Origin: Methylotenera sp.
GTDB lineage: Bacteria; Pseudomonadota; Gammaproteobacteria; Burkholderiales; Methylophilaceae
DNA: 64,000 nucleotides
Reading direction: 5' to 3'
Assembly (NCBI GenBank): GCA_009693255.1
Contig: SHXQ01000001.1
Location: forward strand, 98,511-162,510
Shown here: piece after piece, positions 43,654 through 61,858 of the stretch
Layout: the number at the start of each line of letters is the position of its first letter
Position numbering within the stretch: the stretch's first letter is position 1
The notes under the pieces: model-generated
The model's input: the letters and a program-made list of their open reading frames with translations, nothing else
The model's database searches: none
What the model was told of the DNA's origin: nothing
Program-made: the position numbers and the translations under genes

Positions 43654-43658
43654 GTTGG

Positions 43659-44075
43659 TTGGCGATGATTTTAATCCCAGAAATTGAATATGAACTCACC
43701 GCTATCCGTGCTCAGGGGGCGGGTGGGCAAAATGTCAATAAAGTATCGAGTGCGATTCATTTGCGGTTTGATATTCTTGCGTCATCGCTGAGTGATTGGT
43801 TAAAACAGCGCTTGATACATTTGAAAGATAGCCGCATTACTGATGCAGGGGTGTTGGTGTTAAAAGCCCAGCAATACCGTACGCAAGAAGCCAATAAAAA
43901 AGACGCCATGAAACGTTTACACGAGATTATTAACGCGGCAAATCAAGTAAAACCTATGCGTTACGCCACTAGGCCTAGTTACGGCTCTAAGCAGCGGCGA
44001 TTAGAAAGTAAAACGCAACGTGGGCAAATTAAGCAGATGCGTGGCAAAATAGCATCTGACAAAAATGAACATTAA
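43659..44075 (+). CDS. arfB: alternative ribosome-rescue peptidyl-tRNA hydrolase
   Basis: RAQGAGGQNVNKVSSAIHLRF (GGQ) plus basic C-terminal tail. Confidence 0.95.
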   Translation: MAMILIPEIEYELTAIRAQGAGGQNVNKVSSAIHLRFDILASSLSDWLKQRLIHLKDSRITDAGVLVLKAQQYRTQEANKKDAMKRLHEIINAANQVKPMRYATRPSYGSKQRRLESKTQRGQIKQMRGKIASDKNEH

Positions 44076-51436: not shown

Positions 51437-53080
51437 TTACTGATGAGGTGAAGCTGGCATTGCCGTCGCATGCGCGGCATCTAAATTTTTATTTTCCAGT
51501 AAAAGGGGCTGCGCTAGATGGGCGCCATGAAATTCGTGGCATGACATGCAGCCACTGGCGATACGTTTGGATTTTGGACTGTTGCCAGAGTGGCATCTTA
51601 AGCAGGACTTTCTATCAGGCATAGCAACGTCTGCGCTCGTTTCAGATTTTTCTACTTGGTGGCAGGACTTGCATTGTTGTGTGCGATGCGATGCGTGATT
51701 GAAGCGTGCTTTGCTAAACCAATCCTGATTGATGTTGAGCGGCATGACGCGCCACGACAAGGCACTTTCTTGTGTAGGGATTTCATGGCAATAGGCACAG
51801 CCATCCGACTTTAACGATGCTGAGTACTGTTTGAATTTCTTTGGCGCTTGGACCTGCAGTGCGCTAATAACATTCTGCTCTGAGCCATGAGGCACAGTTA
51901 TTACTGCCTTGGCTGGACCAACCTGCAACTGTTTGGTGTGACACAGCAAGCAGTCTCGCTGGTAGGATACAGGCTTAAAGCGCATTTCTTTGCCTTCCTG
52001 TTGGTGGCAGTTAGTGCATGACAACTCGCGTACATCCCAGATTCCATTGGGCCCTTGCACTAGACCGACATGCTGGGAGTGGGGGAATTTTAGACCAGAT
52101 TTTTCAATCAAACGTGCTGTCTCAGCTTGCGGGATACGTTCGATATCTCCCCCCGTGCCATCTTTAGTGCGGCCCGTCTTGAATGTTAACTTGAAGTCTG
52201 GATGGTCACGATCAAAATCTTTAACATTAGGCAGTAAAGTTGTCGGACTGATAGACTTAATGTCGCCGTGACATTTGACGCACGTGCCGTTATCTTGCCG
52301 CGTGAGTGGGTAGGGCGCCTTATGCTCGCGATGACATTCAGCACAACGGACCCCGTCGGAAAATAGATGGGTAGATGTAAAGACACTTTTTTGTAAAGCG
52401 GGATTAGCAATGTGCGGTGCAGTGTCGCGATGGCAATTGACGCAGGCTTTGTTAGAAACTTTACGCGTTAACACTTCATGGCAGTTAAAACATTGTGCGC
52501 CAAAATGTAGGTGTGAATTGGAAATGTGACCTGGGCTCCATACGCGGTCAAAGCCAAAAGGCAATTGTGCCATAGCTTTTTGTAGTGGGGGAGCCAAGTT
52601 TTGCGCCAATGGCAATGCAAGGAAAATCAGCGCAATGAAGGCCGCCATCCATAGTGAAGCCCGTCGTTTGAAGCTTGAAGCGCCGCGTAGTGGTTCGTGA
52701 GTGCGCGACTTTAAATCTTGAAAATCATCGGGTAGGCGTTGTACCAATAGTAGAGAGATTGTTAGGTTGACATCGGGCGGTGCTGGCTCTACTTTCAATT
52801 GATAAGGACCAATGGTCACCAACTTACCGTGTGTCAGTTCAATGTTTTGCAGCACGCTACCATCTACCGCAAGTTCGCCGTTTACCGCAACCAGATGTAT
52901 CTGCCCACCATCCAATCTTTTGATTACCGCATGATGCATGGCTAGACGCGGATCAGGTAGATGTATGGTGCACTCTGCGCCGCGACCAATGGTAATTTCT
53001 TCTGCCGTGAGCGTGCGATAGCTGCGCGCTAAAACGCCGCGAGCATTATGAGAAATCTTGATTAAAAGACAATTAATCAT
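51437..53080 (-). CDS. FHA domain - TM - decaheme cytochrome c fusion protein
   Basis: N-terminal FHA-like ITIGRGAECTIHLPDPRLAMHHAVIKRL; FKRRASLWMAAFIALIFLALPLA TM; ten CxxCH motifs (CFNCH, CVNCH, CAECH, CVKCH, CTNCH, CLLCH, CAYCH, CKSCH, CLRCH, CMSCH). Confidence 0.92.
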   Translation of the reverse strand: MINCLLIKISHNARGVLARSYRTLTAEEITIGRGAECTIHLPDPRLAMHHAVIKRLDGGQIHLVAVNGELAVDGSVLQNIELTHGKLVTIGPYQLKVEPAPPDVNLTISLLLVQRLPDDFQDLKSRTHEPLRGASSFKRRASLWMAAFIALIFLALPLAQNLAPPLQKAMAQLPFGFDRVWSPGHISNSHLHFGAQCFNCHEVLTRKVSNKACVNCHRDTAPHIANPALQKSVFTSTHLFSDGVRCAECHREHKAPYPLTRQDNGTCVKCHGDIKSISPTTLLPNVKDFDRDHPDFKLTFKTGRTKDGTGGDIERIPQAETARLIEKSGLKFPHSQHVGLVQGPNGIWDVRELSCTNCHQQEGKEMRFKPVSYQRDCLLCHTKQLQVGPAKAVITVPHGSEQNVISALQVQAPKKFKQYSASLKSDGCAYCHEIPTQESALSWRVMPLNINQDWFSKARFNHASHRTQQCKSCHQVEKSETSADVAMPDRKSCLRCHSGNSPKSKRIASGCMSCHEFHGAHLAQPLLLENKNLDAAHATAMPASPHQ

Positions 53081-53096
53081 AAAGATACTTTATCAG

Positions 53097-53927
53097 TTAC
53101 CAATAAAAAAATATGGCAATAACATGTGCCACCATTGCTGTTAGCAATGCGACAGTGAAGGGGACGTGAAAATATAACCAGAAACCCATCCTAGCGCGGA
53201 ACATTAAATCCTGTCTTGCCCGTTTAACCAGGGACTCACGTCTCACCATGATGGAATAAAGATCACGGTATAATTTCCGTTGTTCGAGGGATAGTTCGCC
53301 ACCCAATACCGTTAGTTGTCGCACGACCGTTGCGGATGGACAATCCGGTTGAAATCCTCTAAGTTGCTCTAGCAAGCTAACACCGATAGAAGTTTCGCGA
53401 CAGGCGCGCGTTACGATGTTATTAATGTCATCGGGCATCATTAATGCAATTTGGCGTGCCAACTTATCGGTTTCTGCAATACGTAATAACAATCCATCCA
53501 AGCTATCTTCACCCATGTTTTCTGTCATGAGGCGCGGATAAATCATGTAAGCATAATTACCGAAAAAACCGCTAGTGACCACTATCAATAAAAGACCATA
53601 AGTGAGGCTGTGAATATTGAGGCCAAAATGGAATCCGCTATGTAGTGTCGCTATGACGGTCATAGCGGTACCCAGATAAATATGCGCAGATAACCAGCCC
53701 TGCGTGTTGCCGCGACTGCGGTAGCGTCGTTTGCGTATGCCGTACCAAGCCATCCAAAATACCATTGCCGCAGACAGCGTACCAAGACCATAACCTAGCC
53801 AGCTTCCACCGTAGTGACCGACCGCTGGTTCAAACAGCAGGAAGGCTAAAAGAGCGATGAGTATGACGATGACAGCTAATTTAAAGTAGCGGTAGTTCTT
53901 GTAGTCAAAAATATTGCTATGCTGCAT
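53097..53927 (-). CDS. putative b-type cytochrome / ferric-reductase-like membrane protein
   Basis: Multi-TM with in-helix His (GWLSAHIYLGTAMTVIATLHSGFHFGL; YFHVPFTVALLTAMVAHVIAIFFYW); same operon. Confidence 0.75.
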   Translation of the reverse strand: MQHSNIFDYKNYRYFKLAVIVILIALLAFLLFEPAVGHYGGSWLGYGLGTLSAAMVFWMAWYGIRKRRYRSRGNTQGWLSAHIYLGTAMTVIATLHSGFHFGLNIHSLTYGLLLIVVTSGFFGNYAYMIYPRLMTENMGEDSLDGLLLRIAETDKLARQIALMMPDDINNIVTRACRETSIGVSLLEQLRGFQPDCPSATVVRQLTVLGGELSLEQRKLYRDLYSIMVRRESLVKRARQDLMFRARMGFWLYFHVPFTVALLTAMVAHVIAIFFYW

Positions 53928-53940
53928 CTGGTTATTCTCT

Positions 53941-56457
53941 CTAATTTCCGTCTGAACCTAGTAAAGTGGCTTCGCCAGAGGTGCCGCCAGCATAGCTGAG
54001 TAACTCCTCTGGTTTAACGCGCAACGCCGCCCCTACTGGACAAGCGCGGACGCATACCGGACCATCGACAATATCTTTGCACATGTCACACTTCACCGCC
54101 ACTTTAGGTCCATCAACGACAGCTAAAGATTTAGGCTTAATACCAAGTAGCATCTGCCACAGGCTAGGTTCAGGCTGATCATGGATTACTGCCATTTGAA
54201 TCACATCGTAAGGGCAATTTACTTGGCAGTTACCACAACCGATGCAGCTGTCATCAATGTACACTTCACCATGTGGTGCGCGATGAATCGCGTCGGGTGG
54301 GCAATCTTTCATGCAGTGGGGATGTTCGCAGTGGCGGCAAGATGTGGGTACGCGAATATTTGCAAAAATCGGACCAGCATCCCGATCTAGTCGAGTTGCG
54401 CCACCATGCGTGTCGGCACAAGCCTGTTCGCAGTGATTGCAACGCACACATAACGACTCGTCGATGAGCAATACGTCGGTCGCTTCGCCTACCCCTTGTT
54501 GAATTAAGAAAGAAATTAGATTGGATGGGGTGGATTGCGTTGCGATAGAAGCCTTGCTATCAAAAGCCGTCTCCAGTTGCTGACGATTTTCCTGATCTTG
54601 CAAGTGTTGCAGGTAGCGCGCATCGAGTTCACCGCGAATTTCAGGATTGCGCGCAATGATGTCTCGCATACGCCCAGCTTCGATTAACACAGCGTCCGTC
54701 GCAATGGCGGCGCGAACCGTCGCATAGCGTGGCTCGCCAGAAACCAGTGACATTTCGCCTACATAATGGCCAGCCGCCACATAAAGTAGTACAACTTCTC
54801 TGCCGCCTATCAGGCGTGAAACGGTGACTGAGCCACTTTGAATTAAATATAGACCGTCTGCCTCATCCCCTTCATGAAATAGCTCTTCGCCAGCCGCATA
54901 GCTTTTGAGTGTGGCGTTATTAGCAACGTCATTAAGATCTTCTTCGCTTAGCGATAGGCCAATGCAGAGATGCACAATTGTCTTAATCGCGACTTCATTG
55001 AGTATGCGGCGCATAGACTGCACTGAATCAATGAGCTTTTGCATGACACGCCTAGGGGTTTCTATCAGCACGCACGGCGCACTAGCGCGAACCGTGCCAG
55101 CTCGGCGTCGGCCTGACACCAGCGCCAACTCGCCAAAAAATTCACCAGCTTTGAGTGTGGCATCTGGCGCACCATCATCATCAATCAGAACATCCAGCTC
55201 GCCTTCAATAATTAAGTAAAATGTGGTGCTGTAATCATTTCTTTTGAAAATGACATCACCTGCTTTCGCTAGTAATATATTACTTTCCAGCACCAGTTCT
55301 CGTAGCTGTAAGGTGTTAAGCATCGCCAGTAAGGGCACACTTTTACGAATTTTTTCTAATACATCCTCAACGCCACGGTCTGAGCAGAAGTTTGCAAATT
55401 TCTCACGCAATAGCGCGTTATCGGCGGGTTCAACAGGGTTGCCTAGTATGTATTCAATGACTTCGTAACCCTGATTGATGCCCTGCTTAATCAGCGGGTA
55501 ACCAGCCAACGCGCCAATGATATAAAGGCTGGGGACACTTGATTCGTAATGTGCGGACAGTTGAGGGAGTGCCTCTAGATCCGGGGCTGAGAAGCCGATG
55601 CCAAAGCTTTCTAGTTGCGCGCGTGATGGCAGTGCGCCAAGTCGCGCAATGACTCGATGGCACGGAATGCGTTCAACACCATTCGGCGTACTAGCAAACA
55701 CGGTAATTGGAAATTCGCCTGTGCTATTCTGTTCAATAGATTGTGGTTTGGTTTCTAGTAGCCAGTCCAGCACACCCTTCATGTGGGCATCGGTTAATTG
55801 GCTTAAATTGCTGTCCTTACAATTACTGAAGTCTTCAGCGCGGTTTAATATAATGACTTGGTTGCGACCGGTCAGCGCCAGCGCATTTTCGACGCCGCTA
55901 TCGCCGCCACCGATGACCACGATAGTCTCTTCTTGGTAGGCTTGTGGGTCATCGAGTTGATATTGAATTTGAGGTAAGTCGCCGCCAGGAATGTCCAGTT
56001 TTCGCAAATTGCCTTGCACACCAACGGCGAGTACCACATGATCAGCGCTTAATAGGCTGCCATCCGCCAGTTCCACTTCAAGTGACTTTGTGTTGCGGCG
56101 CAAACCTACAACCTTAGCGCCGTAGCGCACATTAACACGATATTCGGCTATCGTTTTTTCCCAAGTATCAAGCACGGTTTCACGTAGGGCGGCAGTAAAT
56201 GGTAGTGGACTGCGAAGCGGCAAGCCTCGTGGTTCAGCCATGACCAGCTTGCCTCGCTGATAATTTCGAATAGTGTTTGCGGGCGCCTCTTCGGCCTCTA
56301 GCAGTAAGTAGGAAACATTTTGCTCGGTGGCATGTACGGCAGCAGATAGCCCGCTGGGTCCGGCGCCTATAATAATGAGCTTGAAATGTTTTGGTGTGAC
56401 AATTCCAGTCTTACTGCTAGTTTTTTGCACTATATTCGGCGCTAGAGTTGTTACCAT
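53941..56457 (-). CDS. FAD/NAD(P) oxidoreductase - two cNMP-binding domains - four-cluster ferredoxin fusion
   Basis: GAGPSGLSAAVHATEQ (FAD), VIGGGDSGVENALAL (NAD(P)), two CAP_ED-like domains (GEFFGELALVSGRRRAGTVRA; GEMSLVSGEPRYATVRA), 16 Cys in a DmsB-like pattern. Confidence 0.93.
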   Translation of the reverse strand: MVTTLAPNIVQKTSSKTGIVTPKHFKLIIIGAGPSGLSAAVHATEQNVSYLLLEAEEAPANTIRNYQRGKLVMAEPRGLPLRSPLPFTAALRETVLDTWEKTIAEYRVNVRYGAKVVGLRRNTKSLEVELADGSLLSADHVVLAVGVQGNLRKLDIPGGDLPQIQYQLDDPQAYQEETIVVIGGGDSGVENALALTGRNQVIILNRAEDFSNCKDSNLSQLTDAHMKGVLDWLLETKPQSIEQNSTGEFPITVFASTPNGVERIPCHRVIARLGALPSRAQLESFGIGFSAPDLEALPQLSAHYESSVPSLYIIGALAGYPLIKQGINQGYEVIEYILGNPVEPADNALLREKFANFCSDRGVEDVLEKIRKSVPLLAMLNTLQLRELVLESNILLAKAGDVIFKRNDYSTTFYLIIEGELDVLIDDDGAPDATLKAGEFFGELALVSGRRRAGTVRASAPCVLIETPRRVMQKLIDSVQSMRRILNEVAIKTIVHLCIGLSLSEEDLNDVANNATLKSYAAGEELFHEGDEADGLYLIQSGSVTVSRLIGGREVVLLYVAAGHYVGEMSLVSGEPRYATVRAAIATDAVLIEAGRMRDIIARNPEIRGELDARYLQHLQDQENRQQLETAFDSKASIATQSTPSNLISFLIQQGVGEATDVLLIDESLCVRCNHCEQACADTHGGATRLDRDAGPIFANIRVPTSCRHCEHPHCMKDCPPDAIHRAPHGEVYIDDSCIGCGNCQVNCPYDVIQMAVIHDQPEPSLWQMLLGIKPKSLAVVDGPKVAVKCDMCKDIVDGPVCVRACPVGAALRVKPEELLSYAGGTSGEATLLGSDGN

Positions 56458-56815: not shown

Positions 56816-57304
56816 ATGGCAGTATTAGATTTGGGTCATAAAATAATCGCTAGGCCAAACAATTCACTGTCGCCTGATGACAGCATTAAGTTGCTGGCGG
56901 CTATAGCTAGTGTGGCACTGCTGATAGCTTTAGGTTTTGCACGCATCGGCGCTTGGTTAGTTTTGCCTTTTGCAGGCTTAGAAATTTTAGCGTTTGCTTA
57001 TGCTTTTCATGTGATTTATATGCATGCGGATGATTTTGAAAGTATTACGATTGAAGATGACCGTGTGGTTGTAGAAAAAAGAAATTATAAAGAATCAACG
57101 ACAACGGTTTTTCAAAGATATTGGGTGCAAGTGAACGTGCGCGAGATGATGAGGGTTAAGGGTGGTCAAGGTAAAAGTGGGCTTTTTATAAGTTCACATG
57201 GCAATGAAGTTGAGTTTGGTGGAAATTTTATCAATGATGAGCAGCGCACCCAGTTGGCGAGCGAGCTCAGGAAAAAAATATTAATTAAGTTAGTTTTGGA
57301 GTAA
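56816..57304 (+). CDS. DUF2244 domain-containing membrane protein
   Basis: Two TM helices; precedes coxB as in many betaproteobacteria. Confidence 0.82.
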   Translation: MAVLDLGHKIIARPNNSLSPDDSIKLLAAIASVALLIALGFARIGAWLVLPFAGLEILAFAYAFHVIYMHADDFESITIEDDRVVVEKRNYKESTTTVFQRYWVQVNVREMMRVKGGQGKSGLFISSHGNEVEFGGNFINDEQRTQLASELRKKILIKLVLE

Positions 57305-57309
57305 GGTTT

Positions 57310-58482
57310 ATGCGAGGTTATACAAAGATTAGTTTAGCTGTTTCAGCCATGTTAGCTTCAATAAGTGCGCATGCTGATTATGCTTGGAATTTCCCTGAGC
57401 CAGTCACACCGATGGCCTTAGACACATTGCATGTACATAATAAATTTATGCTCATTGCGATGGCTATTTTCTTCGTTGTGCTCGCGATTATGATTTACTC
57501 AATTTTCGCCCATCGAAAAAGTAAAAACTTTAAGCCGCTTACGGACAAAGCGCCATCAACTATCGTTGAAATTTTTTGGACGCTCATCCCTTTCGTTATT
57601 CTGCTATGGATTGACTTTGTGGTTATGGGTATTCCAGCTTATCACAGTGTAATTATGATGGAAGATACGCGTGATAAGGCTAATATGGTCATTAAGATCA
57701 CAGGCTCACAATGGCGCTGGCAATATGAATACATGGATGGTGATGCACAAGGCATTAAATTTGTCAGCAACTTAGCTACACCAAAAGAACAAACAGATAA
57801 AGGCTTTGCAGGTGCAAAAGACGAGAACTACTTGCTGGAAGTAGATAACCGTTTGGTGTTACCAGTTGGAGCAAAAGTACGTATTTTGATGACCTCTGCT
57901 GATGTGATGCACAATTGGTGGGTGCCACAATTTGGTTCTTCACGCATGGCTGTACCTGGTTTTATTCGTGAAACTTGGGTGCAAGTGGAAAAGGCTGGTA
58001 CTTATCGCGGTCAGTGTAAAGAACTGTGCGGCAAGGGTCATGGCTATATGCCTGTGGTGGTTGATGCGTTACCAGTAGAAGAATACAAAAAATGGGTAGC
58101 GGCTAAAAAAGAAGAATTAGCCAAAGCTTCTGCAGGTGCTGATAAAGAATGGACCAAGGACGAATTGGTCGCAAATGGTAAAGTGGTATACGAGAAGAAT
58201 TGTGCCGTTTGTCACCAAGTGACAGGTGCCGGTTTACCACCAGCATTCCCAGCGATAACCGGTAGTAAAGTGACTAATGCCCCAATTTTTGGTGCTGATG
58301 GCAAGTATCTTAAAGATGGTCATCTTGATCGCGTATTAAATGGTATACGGGTAATGCCATCATGGAAGGCGCTGTTGAATGATACTGAGATTGCGTCAGT
58401 GATTACCTATGAACGAAATGCCTTAGGTAATAGCGTGGGCGATATATTGCAGCCAGCTCAAGTTAAAGAAGCGCGTCAATAA
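57310..58482 (+). CDS. coxB: cytochrome c oxidase subunit II with C-terminal cytochrome c domain
   Basis: CuA motif QCKELCGKGHGYMPV; CAVCHQ heme c motif. Confidence 0.96.
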   Translation: MRGYTKISLAVSAMLASISAHADYAWNFPEPVTPMALDTLHVHNKFMLIAMAIFFVVLAIMIYSIFAHRKSKNFKPLTDKAPSTIVEIFWTLIPFVILLWIDFVVMGIPAYHSVIMMEDTRDKANMVIKITGSQWRWQYEYMDGDAQGIKFVSNLATPKEQTDKGFAGAKDENYLLEVDNRLVLPVGAKVRILMTSADVMHNWWVPQFGSSRMAVPGFIRETWVQVEKAGTYRGQCKELCGKGHGYMPVVVDALPVEEYKKWVAAKKEELAKASAGADKEWTKDELVANGKVVYEKNCAVCHQVTGAGLPPAFPAITGSKVTNAPIFGADGKYLKDGHLDRVLNGIRVMPSWKALLNDTEIASVITYERNALGNSVGDILQPAQVKEARQ

Positions 58483-58545
58483 AGAATAATCACGATTTGA
58501 ATCAACATTAATTAATTATTTAGTTTGAGTAATTAGGAGAAGGTA

Positions 58546-60138
58546 ATGAGTACAACAACGGTAGCGCATCATGAAGAGCATGCTGAACACCCAACAGGAA
58601 TTATGCGATGGTTAACCACTACCAACCATAAAGATATCGGTACCATGTATCTAACTTTTGCGCTGATTATGTTTTTTGTGGGCGGCGCAATGATTTTGGG
58701 CATTCGTGCTGAATTGTTTAAGCCAGGTCTGCAGTTAATGAATCCTGAGTTTTTCAATCAATTGATTGGTGTGCATGCCTTGATTATGATTTTTGCGGCA
58801 TTGATGCCAGCAGCGACTGGTTTTGCTAACTGGATGATTCCATTGCAAATTGGTGCGCCGGATATGGCATTGCCGCGTTTAAATAACTGGGGTTTTTGGT
58901 TGCTACCTCCTTCTGCAATTCTCTTAACCTTACCGTTTACGCTGGCTTTGTTCGGTATAGGTGACGGTGCCTTGGCGACTGGCTGGACATTTTATCCACC
59001 ACTTTCTATTCAAGGTGGCATCGGCGTCGACTTCGCAATTTTTGCGGTGCATTTGCTTGGTATTTCTTCAGTGCTAGGTTCAATTAACATTATCGTTACC
59101 GTATTCAATATGCGCGCGCCTGGCATGACCTTAATGAAAATGCCTATGTTTGTTTGGGGTTGGTTAATTACTGCTTTCTTGTTAATTGCTACTATTCCAG
59201 TGTTAGCGGGCGCAGTAACTATGTTGTTAACAGATCGTCACTTTGGTACGCACTTCTTTGATGCAGCCGGCGGTGGTGACCCAATTATGTTCCAACATTT
59301 ATTCTGGTTCTTTGGTCATCCTGAAGTTTATATTCTGTTATTACCAGTATGGGGTTTCATTCCACAAATTTTAGAAACATTCTCACGTAAACCGATGTAT
59401 GGCTACAAAGCGCAAGTGTATTCATTTTGGGCGGTAGGCGCACTGTCAGTAGTTGTGTGGGCGCATCACTTTTTCACATCAGGCATGCCGGTACCAGCAT
59501 TGCTTTACTTTATGTACAGCACCATGGCGATTTCACTGCCATTAGCTGTGATGTTCTTCTGCTGGATCAAAACCATGTGGAAAGGCTCTATGAGCTTTGA
59601 AACCCCCATGTTGTTTACCGTGGGCTGGATTATCCTTTTCGGTATCGGCGGTTTGACTGGTTTAGTGTTGGCTGACGTTGCGGCTGATGCGCAATACCAC
59701 AATAGTTATTTTATCGTGGCGCATTTCCACTACACGCTATTTGCTGGCGGCATCATGGGTATTATGGCGGGTACTTATTACTGGTTACCTAAAATGACTG
59801 GCCATATGTACAACGAGAAGTTGGGTAAACTACACTTCTGGCTAACAGCAATCTCATTTAACTTAACTTTCATCCCTCAGTTCTTCTTGGGTTTGGCCGG
59901 TATGCCACGTCGTATTCCAGACTACGCATTGCAATTTGCAGAGTTCAACATGATTTCAACAATCGCCGCGTTTACGCTTGGCTTATCCCAGTTGATATTT
60001 GTTTATAACATTGTGACTTGTGCACGCGGTGGTAAAAAAGCCACAGATCAAGTTTGGGAAGGCGCTCAAGGTTTGGAGTGGACATTACCATCACCGCCGC
60101 CTTACCATAGCTTTACTGAGCAACCAACGGTTAAATAA
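58546..60138 (+). CDS. coxA: cytochrome c oxidase subunit I
   Basis: WFFGHPEVYILLLPVWGFIPQILETFSRKPMYGYKAQVYS; 530 aa. Confidence 0.98.
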   Translation: MSTTTVAHHEEHAEHPTGIMRWLTTTNHKDIGTMYLTFALIMFFVGGAMILGIRAELFKPGLQLMNPEFFNQLIGVHALIMIFAALMPAATGFANWMIPLQIGAPDMALPRLNNWGFWLLPPSAILLTLPFTLALFGIGDGALATGWTFYPPLSIQGGIGVDFAIFAVHLLGISSVLGSINIIVTVFNMRAPGMTLMKMPMFVWGWLITAFLLIATIPVLAGAVTMLLTDRHFGTHFFDAAGGGDPIMFQHLFWFFGHPEVYILLLPVWGFIPQILETFSRKPMYGYKAQVYSFWAVGALSVVVWAHHFFTSGMPVPALLYFMYSTMAISLPLAVMFFCWIKTMWKGSMSFETPMLFTVGWIILFGIGGLTGLVLADVAADAQYHNSYFIVAHFHYTLFAGGIMGIMAGTYYWLPKMTGHMYNEKLGKLHFWLTAISFNLTFIPQFFLGLAGMPRRIPDYALQFAEFNMISTIAAFTLGLSQLIFVYNIVTCARGGKKATDQVWEGAQGLEWTLPSPPPYHSFTEQPTVK

Positions 60139-60186
60139 GGATAAAAGCTCGGCTTGATATTTAAGCTGAGCTTAATTTGGGTCAAT

Positions 60187-60300
60187 ATGGACAAGTCAGT
60201 AAAAAATATAAGAATTAGTAATCGAAAAATTGCCTTGGCACTGGGGGGCATTGCTTTAGTTTGGTATGTGGTGTCAATGTTTGCAATATGGCATCAGTAA
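60187..60300 (+). CDS. small cytochrome oxidase-associated single-TM protein (37 aa)
   Basis: Translated directly: MDKSVKNIRISNRKIALALGGIALVWYVVSMFAIWHQ; between coxA and ctaG, overlapping the ctaG start. Confidence 0.75.
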   Translation: MDKSVKNIRISNRKIALALGGIALVWYVVSMFAIWHQ

Positions 60301-60851
60301 GCGAAAGTAAGGTATTAACGGCAAAGGAGCAGCTTGATTTAAAAAACCAGCGTTTAATACGCAAGCTTTTGTGGATGCTACTTGGGTCTCTATTGTTTGC
60401 CTTTGCGCTAGTGCCTATTTACAACGTGTTATGCACTATGACTGGCTTAAATGGAAAACCGCAAAACACTGCGACGGTTCTTGCTAAGGCGAAGATAGAT
60501 GGTACGCGATGGGTGAATGTGCAGTTTACTTCTAGCGTGATGTCAGGCTTAGGTTGGAACTTCTATCCTAAAACGACGAGCATCAGGTTGCACCCTGGGC
60601 AAATAGAAACCGTGATTTTTGTTGCAAAGAACACCACCAATGAAGTGGTGGCTGGTCAGGCTATACCTAGTGTTACACCCGGTATAGCGGCGGCTAATCT
60701 TAAAAAGATAGAGTGTTTTTGTTTTGTCAGGCAATCACTTAAGCCTGGCGAAGAAAGAGAAATGCCACTACGTTTTTTTGTGAGCCCAGAGTTGCCAAAA
60801 GATGTATCTGACATGACATTGTCATATTCATTTTTTCCAGCAGTGAAATAA
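60288..60851 (+). CDS. ctaG: cytochrome c oxidase assembly protein CtaG/Cox11
   Basis: ALVPIYNVLCTMTGLNGK; KIECFCFVRQSLKPGEEREMPLRFFVSPELP; ATG at 60288. Confidence 0.95.
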   Translation: MASVSESKVLTAKEQLDLKNQRLIRKLLWMLLGSLLFAFALVPIYNVLCTMTGLNGKPQNTATVLAKAKIDGTRWVNVQFTSSVMSGLGWNFYPKTTSIRLHPGQIETVIFVAKNTTNEVVAGQAIPSVTPGIAAANLKKIECFCFVRQSLKPGEEREMPLRFFVSPELPKDVSDMTLSYSFFPAVK

Positions 60852-60952
60852 AGTAATTAGTTTTAATTTAGAAGTAAGTGTTTTATGGTGAGGTAATGAC
60901 GGTTTATTCGTCATTGTGAATTTAATATATAAAAATGCACAGGAGTTATTGC

Positions 60953-61858
60953 ATGGCGACACATTCTAACAATCAGTATTACGTACCGCACGGTAGTATT
61001 TACCCAGCGATTATCGCTGCCGGCTTACTATCATTAGCTTCTGGTTTTATTTTTAGCGTTGCTACGGATAAAAGTCAAGAGCTTGCTTACTTGCAAACGC
61101 CAGGTAAATGGATGATGATTTTGGGCGCCACGCTCATTTTAGGCATGACCTTCAAATGGATGGGTGCCGTTATTGCCGAAAGTATCACTGGCCAATATAC
61201 AAGCTGGGAAGATAAGTCATTCCGTATCGGCATGATTGTGTTTATTTGCTCTGAAGTGGCATTCTTTGCTGCCTTCTTTGGTGCGTTGTTTTACATGAGA
61301 ATACTATCTGTGCCAGATTTAGCGGGTTACGACCTTGACATTACCCCCTATAAAGATTTTCTAGGCACATGGCCATCATCAGGCCCTGGCGGTATGACCG
61401 TGTCAGGCGAATTTAAACCAGGACTGCTGCACCCAATGGCAGCATGGGGTTTACCCGCTATTAACACTGCGCTGTTGCTGTCCTCTGGCGCTACCCTTAC
61501 TTGGGCGCATTGGGGTCTAATTAGAAACAATCGCAAACAACTCGTTATTGGTATGGCACTTACGGTAGCACTTGGTATTGCTTTCTTGATCTGCCAGGCA
61601 GCTGAATATCATGAAGCCTACACTGAAATGGGCTTGACGCTAGAATCAGGAGCTTATGGTGCTAGTTTCTTTATGCTCACGGGCTTTCACGGCTTTCATG
61701 TGATGTTAGGGACTATCATGCTGATTGTGATTTTAATCCGCTGTATGAAGGGTCATTTCACGCCTGAGCACCATTTTGGCTTCGAGGGTGTTGCTTGGTA
61801 TTGGCACTTTGTCGATGTGGTTTGGTTAGGTCTATTTGTGTTTGTATACTGGCTATAA
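60953..61858 (+). CDS. coxC: cytochrome c oxidase subunit III
   Basis: YVPHGSIYPAIIAAGLL; FHGFHVMLGTIML; WYWHFVDVVWLGLFVFVYWL. Confidence 0.97.
   Translation: MATHSNNQYYVPHGSIYPAIIAAGLLSLASGFIFSVATDKSQELAYLQTPGKWMMILGATLILGMTFKWMGAVIAESITGQYTSWEDKSFRIGMIVFICSEVAFFAAFFGALFYMRILSVPDLAGYDLDITPYKDFLGTWPSSGPGGMTVSGEFKPGLLHPMAAWGLPAINTALLLSSGATLTWAHWGLIRNNRKQLVIGMALTVALGIAFLICQAAEYHEAYTEMGLTLESGAYGASFFMLTGFHGFHVMLGTIMLIVILIRCMKGHFTPEHHFGFEGVAWYWHFVDVVWLGLFVFVYWL

Follow-up and report, generated by a model that had tools for sequence, protein, structure and literature searches.

A predicted inner-membrane electron conduit in Methylotenera with tandem cyclic-nucleotide-binding folds in its flavin and iron–sulfur protein

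Electron conduits of the kind considered here have been known since 2017 from comparative genomics (He et al., 2017; PMC5566968). As described in the main text of that study, PCC3 and PCC4 clusters encode an inner-membrane protein (IMP) with five transmembrane (TM) spans, two WX3HX13H motifs (on TM3 and TM5) and an SGXXG motif on TM4, which was likened to NOX/ferric reductase (FRD) and assigned two b-haems. A complete cluster needs a porin gene, and PCC4 is given three periplasmic cytochromes of 4, 5 and 10 haems, the 10-haem and 5-haem proteins among them; in its subgroup II, a pfam13247 Fe–S gene adjoins the IMP. Porin-less clusters of an IMP, a multihaem cytochrome and "another redox protein" are also mentioned. 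Electron flow is modelled to quinones, and the terms "cyclic nucleotide", "pyridine nucleotide" and "FHA" are absent from the main text (PMC5566968).

For a flavin module and a HydN-type Fe–S domain in a single chain, AegA is the precedent: AegA and YgfT each join a HydN-type 4x[4Fe-4S] domain to a flavin module for pyridine nucleotides (PMC8097209). Cyclic-nucleotide-binding (cNMP) folds with Glu/Arg cassettes are found in tandem in PKA and PKG and singly in CRP. Here we describe a locus in a 64,000-nucleotide stretch of a Methylotenera sp. genome (contig SHXQ01000001.1; hereafter the window), where three genes, A, B and C, follow one another on the minus strand with gaps of 13 bp (A-B) and 16 bp (B-C). 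A word-based search of open-licence papers returned no description of an NAD(P)H/flavin end fused to tandem cNMP folds, or of the A-B-C set.

Domain make-up and distribution of gene A

Gene A (53941..56457, minus strand) is a single uninterrupted open reading frame with an ATG start, and its product of 838 amino acids contains, in chain order, a flavin NAD(P)H oxidoreductase, tandem cNMP-binding folds and a 4x[4Fe-4S] domain. One polypeptide with a pyridine-nucleotide oxidoreductase, two cNMP folds and an Fe–S module had been proposed in the original prediction, and both the reading frame and Pfam agree: in an HMM domain scan Pyr_redox_3, cNMP_binding (twice) and Fer4_9, Fer4_7 and Fer4_11 were all matched. 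The structure model (AF2) has a mean pLDDT of 75.7, the Fe–S part being of low confidence (about 50-80).

The flavin module (aa 24-345; 55423..56388, minus strand) is matched by Pyr_redox_3 at aa 28-315 (E 7e-26) and carries a GxGPxG FAD motif as well as a second GxG dinucleotide motif. Its fold and best sequence match are shared with YpdA and the TrxR-like ferredoxin-NADP+ reductases; the best Foldseek match is YpdA (7a7b, TMt 0.84), and FNR-type reductases were also matched. Since CxxC occurs in none of the 78 aligned rows, the protein is not a thioredoxin reductase and a TrxR-type disulfide is ruled out. Assignment to the YpdA bacillithiol disulfide reductases was rejected as well (105.4 bits against a family cut-off of 339.9, and no CxxC); unlike YpdA, the flavin module of A is fused and membrane-linked.

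The Fe–S domain (aa 660-815; 54013..54480, minus strand) is of the HydN/AegA type according to NCBIfam, with Fer4_9, Fer4_7 and Fer4_11 at about aa 700-810, and its PDB relatives are HycB3/HycB4-type Fe–S subunits. Homologues were compared in two alignments, A5 with 57 rows and A2 with 21 more distant rows. All 16 cluster cysteines fall into four quartets (670/673/676/680, 707/710/715/719, 738/741/744/748 and 790/793/802/806) and are invariant in 57/57 and 21/21 rows, which confirms the four complete quartets expected from the first reading of the sequence. The accompanying label "DmsB-like" was right as to the four quartets and wrong as to the nearest family, the ranking being AegA (1.7e-17), HydN (1.8e-13) and, third, DmsB (4.5e-13). 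A DmsB-type molybdoenzyme subunit was rejected, as a catalytic subunit is absent nearby and AegA and HydN score higher. Membership of the AegA family was also rejected (61 bits against a cut-off of 1003, with a match limited to the Fe–S part). In AegA the Fe–S part comes first and the flavin domain is of the GltD type, whereas A begins with its flavin module and has cNMP folds; neither these folds nor a B-type membrane partner belong to AegA as described (PMC8097209).

At least 568 relatives of A were confirmed in a genome-wide scan, and orthologues are present in alphaproteobacteria and gammaproteobacteria, including the former betaproteobacteria. Among the genus mates, 41 of 51 genomes contain matches (identity about 73-90%), almost all of which run the full length or are split by a contig end, and homologues in the order share 45-53% identity. 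In evenly drawn samples A is carried by 17 of 369 genomes at the level of the class and 9 of 299 at that of the phylum, both tallies counting the window's own genome and having one other genome in common. Given the invariant cysteines and the full-length matches in genus mates, the fusion is neither a chance event nor an assembly artefact. Cultured carriers are Methylotenera mobilis 13, M. oryzisoli, Lysobacter sp. CAU 1642 and Pseudomarimonas arenosa. Two genus mates contain a divergent A-like protein (identity about 48-51%) that is truncated where the contigs end (L034:6271-7729 and L037:1-987).

Predicted membrane and periplasmic partners of A

Gene B (53097..53927, minus strand) encodes a predicted five-helix inner-membrane protein of 276 amino acids with the signature of the PCC3/PCC4-type IMPs, namely two WX3HX13H motifs (W78...H82...H96 and W250...H254...H268) and an SGXXG motif (SGFFG at 119). 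The four histidines, spaced by 14 on two helices, are invariant in 27/27 homologues; two WX3HX13H motifs are present in 26 of these, and HX13H occurs at least twice in all. B is predicted to carry two stacked b-haems, with H82/H254 and H96/H268 as putative ligand pairs. NOX/FRD proteins similarly have two helices each with HX13H and two predicted stacked haems (main text of PMC5566968), but B gave no significant match in Pfam, FRD included, and none to a fold in the PDB. The AF2 model (pLDDT 85.8) has helices that fit five membrane spans and a soluble insert; a simple hydropathy cut-off found two helices.

Gene C (51437..53080, minus strand; 547 aa) is matched by the Pfam families FHA, Cytochrom_c3_2 and Cytochrome_C7. 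An FHA fold (52796..53038, minus strand; PF00498, 4.7e-8), predicted to lie on the cytoplasmic side, is followed by one TM segment at 140-166 and a decahaem region (51536..52492, minus strand), predicted to be periplasmic, whose ten CXXCH motifs (aa 197, 213, 246, 267, 355, 377, 428, 470, 493 and 511) are all kept in 29/29 homologues. The operon shares with PCC3/PCC4 the IMP signature and the accompanying multihaem cytochromes, but no porin gene was found beside it and it has a single decahaem cytochrome.

The association of A with B is strict. B was found at E<=1e-69 in 33 of 33 A-positive genomes and, three weak paralogue matches aside, in 0 of 31 A-negative genomes, a set hand-picked from the genus-mate and class lists and partly of the same family, which serves as a contrast and not as a random sample. 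In 53 of the 80 named loci B is the gene immediately after A, with C next in line wherever the contig continues. Eight of the other 27 loci were examined, and in six a porin-like barrel, a decahaem protein and a c554-like cytochrome are encoded upstream of A. In these extended clusters (porin-like protein 588 aa, decahaem/LVIVD protein 1243 aa, c554-like protein 441 aa; haem counts 10, 5 with one CX4CH, and 10), LVIVD repeats were detected in the decahaem protein in both of two scanned, and in the two genomes examined B and C are encoded a few kb from A. Porin-like and further multihaem genes accompany the operon in many genomes; an outer decahaem/LVIVD cytochrome encoded elsewhere was found in none of seven tested genomes of the window's genus. 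One extended cluster contains, between C and the porin-like gene, a lipoprotein-like protein of 658 aa with HbpS-like haem domains (L177:8367-10343). A promoter/terminator scan gave results at chance level. A functional link to the divergent cytochrome c oxidase genes (window 56816-61858) was rejected, as the neighbourhood differs in the four relatives examined.

The domains, the cluster and haem ligands, the operon and its co-occurrence are evident in the sequences, and they suggest that A, B and C very probably form a membrane conduit. The fuller explanation, which we favour with some reserve, is an inner-membrane electron conduit connecting the NAD(P)(H) pool with a periplasmic decahaem cytochrome. 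FAD bound to A would take electrons from NAD(P)H and pass them one at a time along the C-terminal series of four [4Fe-4S] clusters; from there they would reach the two stacked b-haems of B, cross the membrane and enter the ten c-haems of C, which would hand them to acceptors in the periplasm or, where a species has them, to the porin-like barrel and further multihaem cytochromes. We infer this cofactor occupancy and order of transfer because of the ligands and the membrane layout. The flavin NAD(P)H-to-Fe–S path within A that had been predicted thus finds support. A had been treated alone as an enzyme, the downstream genes B and C being overlooked, and A would be the cytoplasmic end of the conduit.

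Cyclic-nucleotide-binding folds and possible ligand control

The middle part of A resembles PKG and PKA regulatory subunits among its PDB relatives, and cNMP_binding (PF00027) matches it twice (E 1.1e-37; 128.3 bits against a cut-off of 27.5). Fold 1 (aa 372-500; 54958..55344, minus strand) is defined by PF00027, the PKG/PKA-R matches and the AF2 model, and fold 2 (aa 501-625; 54583..54957, minus strand) by PF00027 at 518-604, a CRP-like match (2e-24) and the same model, in which both folds have P-helices (443-448 and 568-573). In A these folds are joined to a redox enzyme, whereas their partners in PKA, PKG and CRP are kinases or DNA-binding domains.

Phosphate-binding cassette 1, FGELALVSGRRRAGTVRA (55084..55137, minus strand), keeps E443, R450, R451 and R452, each in 57/57 rows of A5, with the Glu and Arg retained in 21/21 rows of A2. 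Its SGRRR stretch is an unusual triple Arg, found in 57/57 rows of A5 and near-invariant in the 21 rows of A2, and it gives A extra invariant Arg residues compared with the cassettes of PKA, PKG and CRP. In cassette 2, VGEMSLVSGEPRYATVRA (54709..54762, minus strand), E568 is present in 57/57 rows of A5 and is Glu in all rows, and R577 is kept in 56/57 (A5) and 18/21 (A2); the Glu/Arg pairs of the window protein are E443/R452 and E568/R577. Measured against the strict cassette pattern, which we take to be PROSITE PS00889, both cassettes of the window protein fail by one residue, the first through A->G and the second through S/T/A->Y, and among homologues the full pattern is passed by cassette 2 in 45/57 and by cassette 1 in 24/57. 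Glu/Arg retention and the full pattern hence rank the two cassettes oppositely. This goes against the original prediction of a deviating first and a near-canonical second cassette, since each misses the strict pattern once and Glu and Arg are kept more often in the first. The division into one sensing and one structural domain does not hold either: the Glu/Arg pair is present in both folds, and the copy chosen as divergent does not match the conservation. Both cassettes look able to hold a phosphate and both look slightly unusual, and the sequence offers no choice between the two folds as the sensor, if either is one.

Ligand control of A is possible. Lying between the flavin and the Fe–S module, the cNMP folds may respond to a ligand by shifting the modules and so gate the flavin-to-cluster step. 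Control by cAMP or some other cyclic nucleotide is no more than plausible, and we would give the idea that a cyclic nucleotide gates the conduit just short of an even chance. Only tentatively do we propose the whole scheme, in which a second messenger allosterically gates a conduit from NAD(P)H to the periplasm (to the outside in some species) and provides a protein-level on/off switch besides transcription.

The conduit would stand equally well if the cNMP folds were structural or oligomerising, or bound another anionic ligand, a serious contender that we nevertheless regard as somewhat doubtful. The failure of both window cassettes against the strict pattern and the invariance of the triple Arg are in its favour, as are carriers in which no class III cyclase was detected. 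Such a cyclase was found in 28 of 30 tested carriers, which counts for gating; against it, 9 of 12 genomes lacking A have one too, and none was found in two near-complete carriers (G012 and G047), whose cassettes are intact. A class I adenylate cyclase that might supply the ligand was found in none of nine genomes. The FHA fold of C points the same way: it keeps GR, but the pThr-contact Ser of its SxxH loop is Ala in the window and mostly A/N/G/R/Y in homologues, so that both regulatory-looking folds may have been re-used for assembly. On the other hand, the retention of Glu and Arg, always in cassette 1 and nearly always in cassette 2, exceeds what a scaffold would need. In the window's genome, the strong class III cyclase match (G000:C7:46518-47048) contains one in-frame TAG, the frames of relatives being open; this is either a decayed gene or an assembly error.

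Direction of electron flow and the proposed NAD(P)H end

Net electron flow through A-B-C is probably outward, a direction that we infer from the potentials that cofactors of this type should have and the lack of a coupling device. In an inward conduit, donors in the periplasm or outside the cell, such as reduced metals, humics or other cytochromes, would deliver electrons via C, B and A to NAD(P)+. Inward flow was proposed for the PCC3/PCC4 relatives, though to quinones, in the main text of He et al. (2017; PMC5566968). Homologues of A in Gallionella, Sideroxydans and Ferrigenium assemblies would fit such a direction, but with high-potential donors the reduction of NAD(P)+ runs uphill, and no part of the operon looks able to couple it to the pmf, which makes inward flow unlikely. 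Most carriers of A, moreover, are not known to oxidise metals. The PCC3 clusters of Sideroxydans ES-1, a related system and not A-B-C itself, are downregulated with Fe(II) (PMC8788666). Finally, cNMP and FHA are signalling folds, but a reading of A as a signalling protein that senses redox state or a ligand, with no part as the entry to an electron path, is highly improbable in view of the complete and invariant cofactor ligands in A, B and C and the recurrent association with multihaem cytochromes.

Ranking next after A among matches to the flavin module in these genomes is a simpler sister protein of 430-440 aa, which has a flavin part of the same type and two [4Fe-4S] motifs (loci L173:6649-11010 in genome G013, L174, L176 and L178-L197). 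In 14 of 20 loci its neighbours include a PCC3-type IMP and cytochromes that have as many as 35 haems, these genes usually being transcribed away from it. The sister protein is a candidate for the NAD(P)H end of PCC3 conduits and, short of proof, lends support to an NAD(P)H link for the whole conduit group. In G013 the PCC3-like cluster comes directly after a DinG-like gene (L173:6093-11010). The left flank of window positions 43654-44064 is the same as in G013 (GlcF-like, S41 protease and DinG-like genes), with the next gene only about 400 bp away, and this interval looks like an unoccupied site for a PCC3-like cluster.

For PCC3/PCC4-like conduits, the quinone pool has so far been modelled as the cytoplasmic end (main text of PMC5566968). 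A conserved and strictly co-occurring flavin/Fe–S partner points to NAD(P)H for the A-B-C family and, through the sister protein, possibly for PCC3. The existence of cultured carriers makes both the conduit and the gating proposals testable and, if the cNMP folds work, a second messenger would directly control trans-envelope electron transfer.
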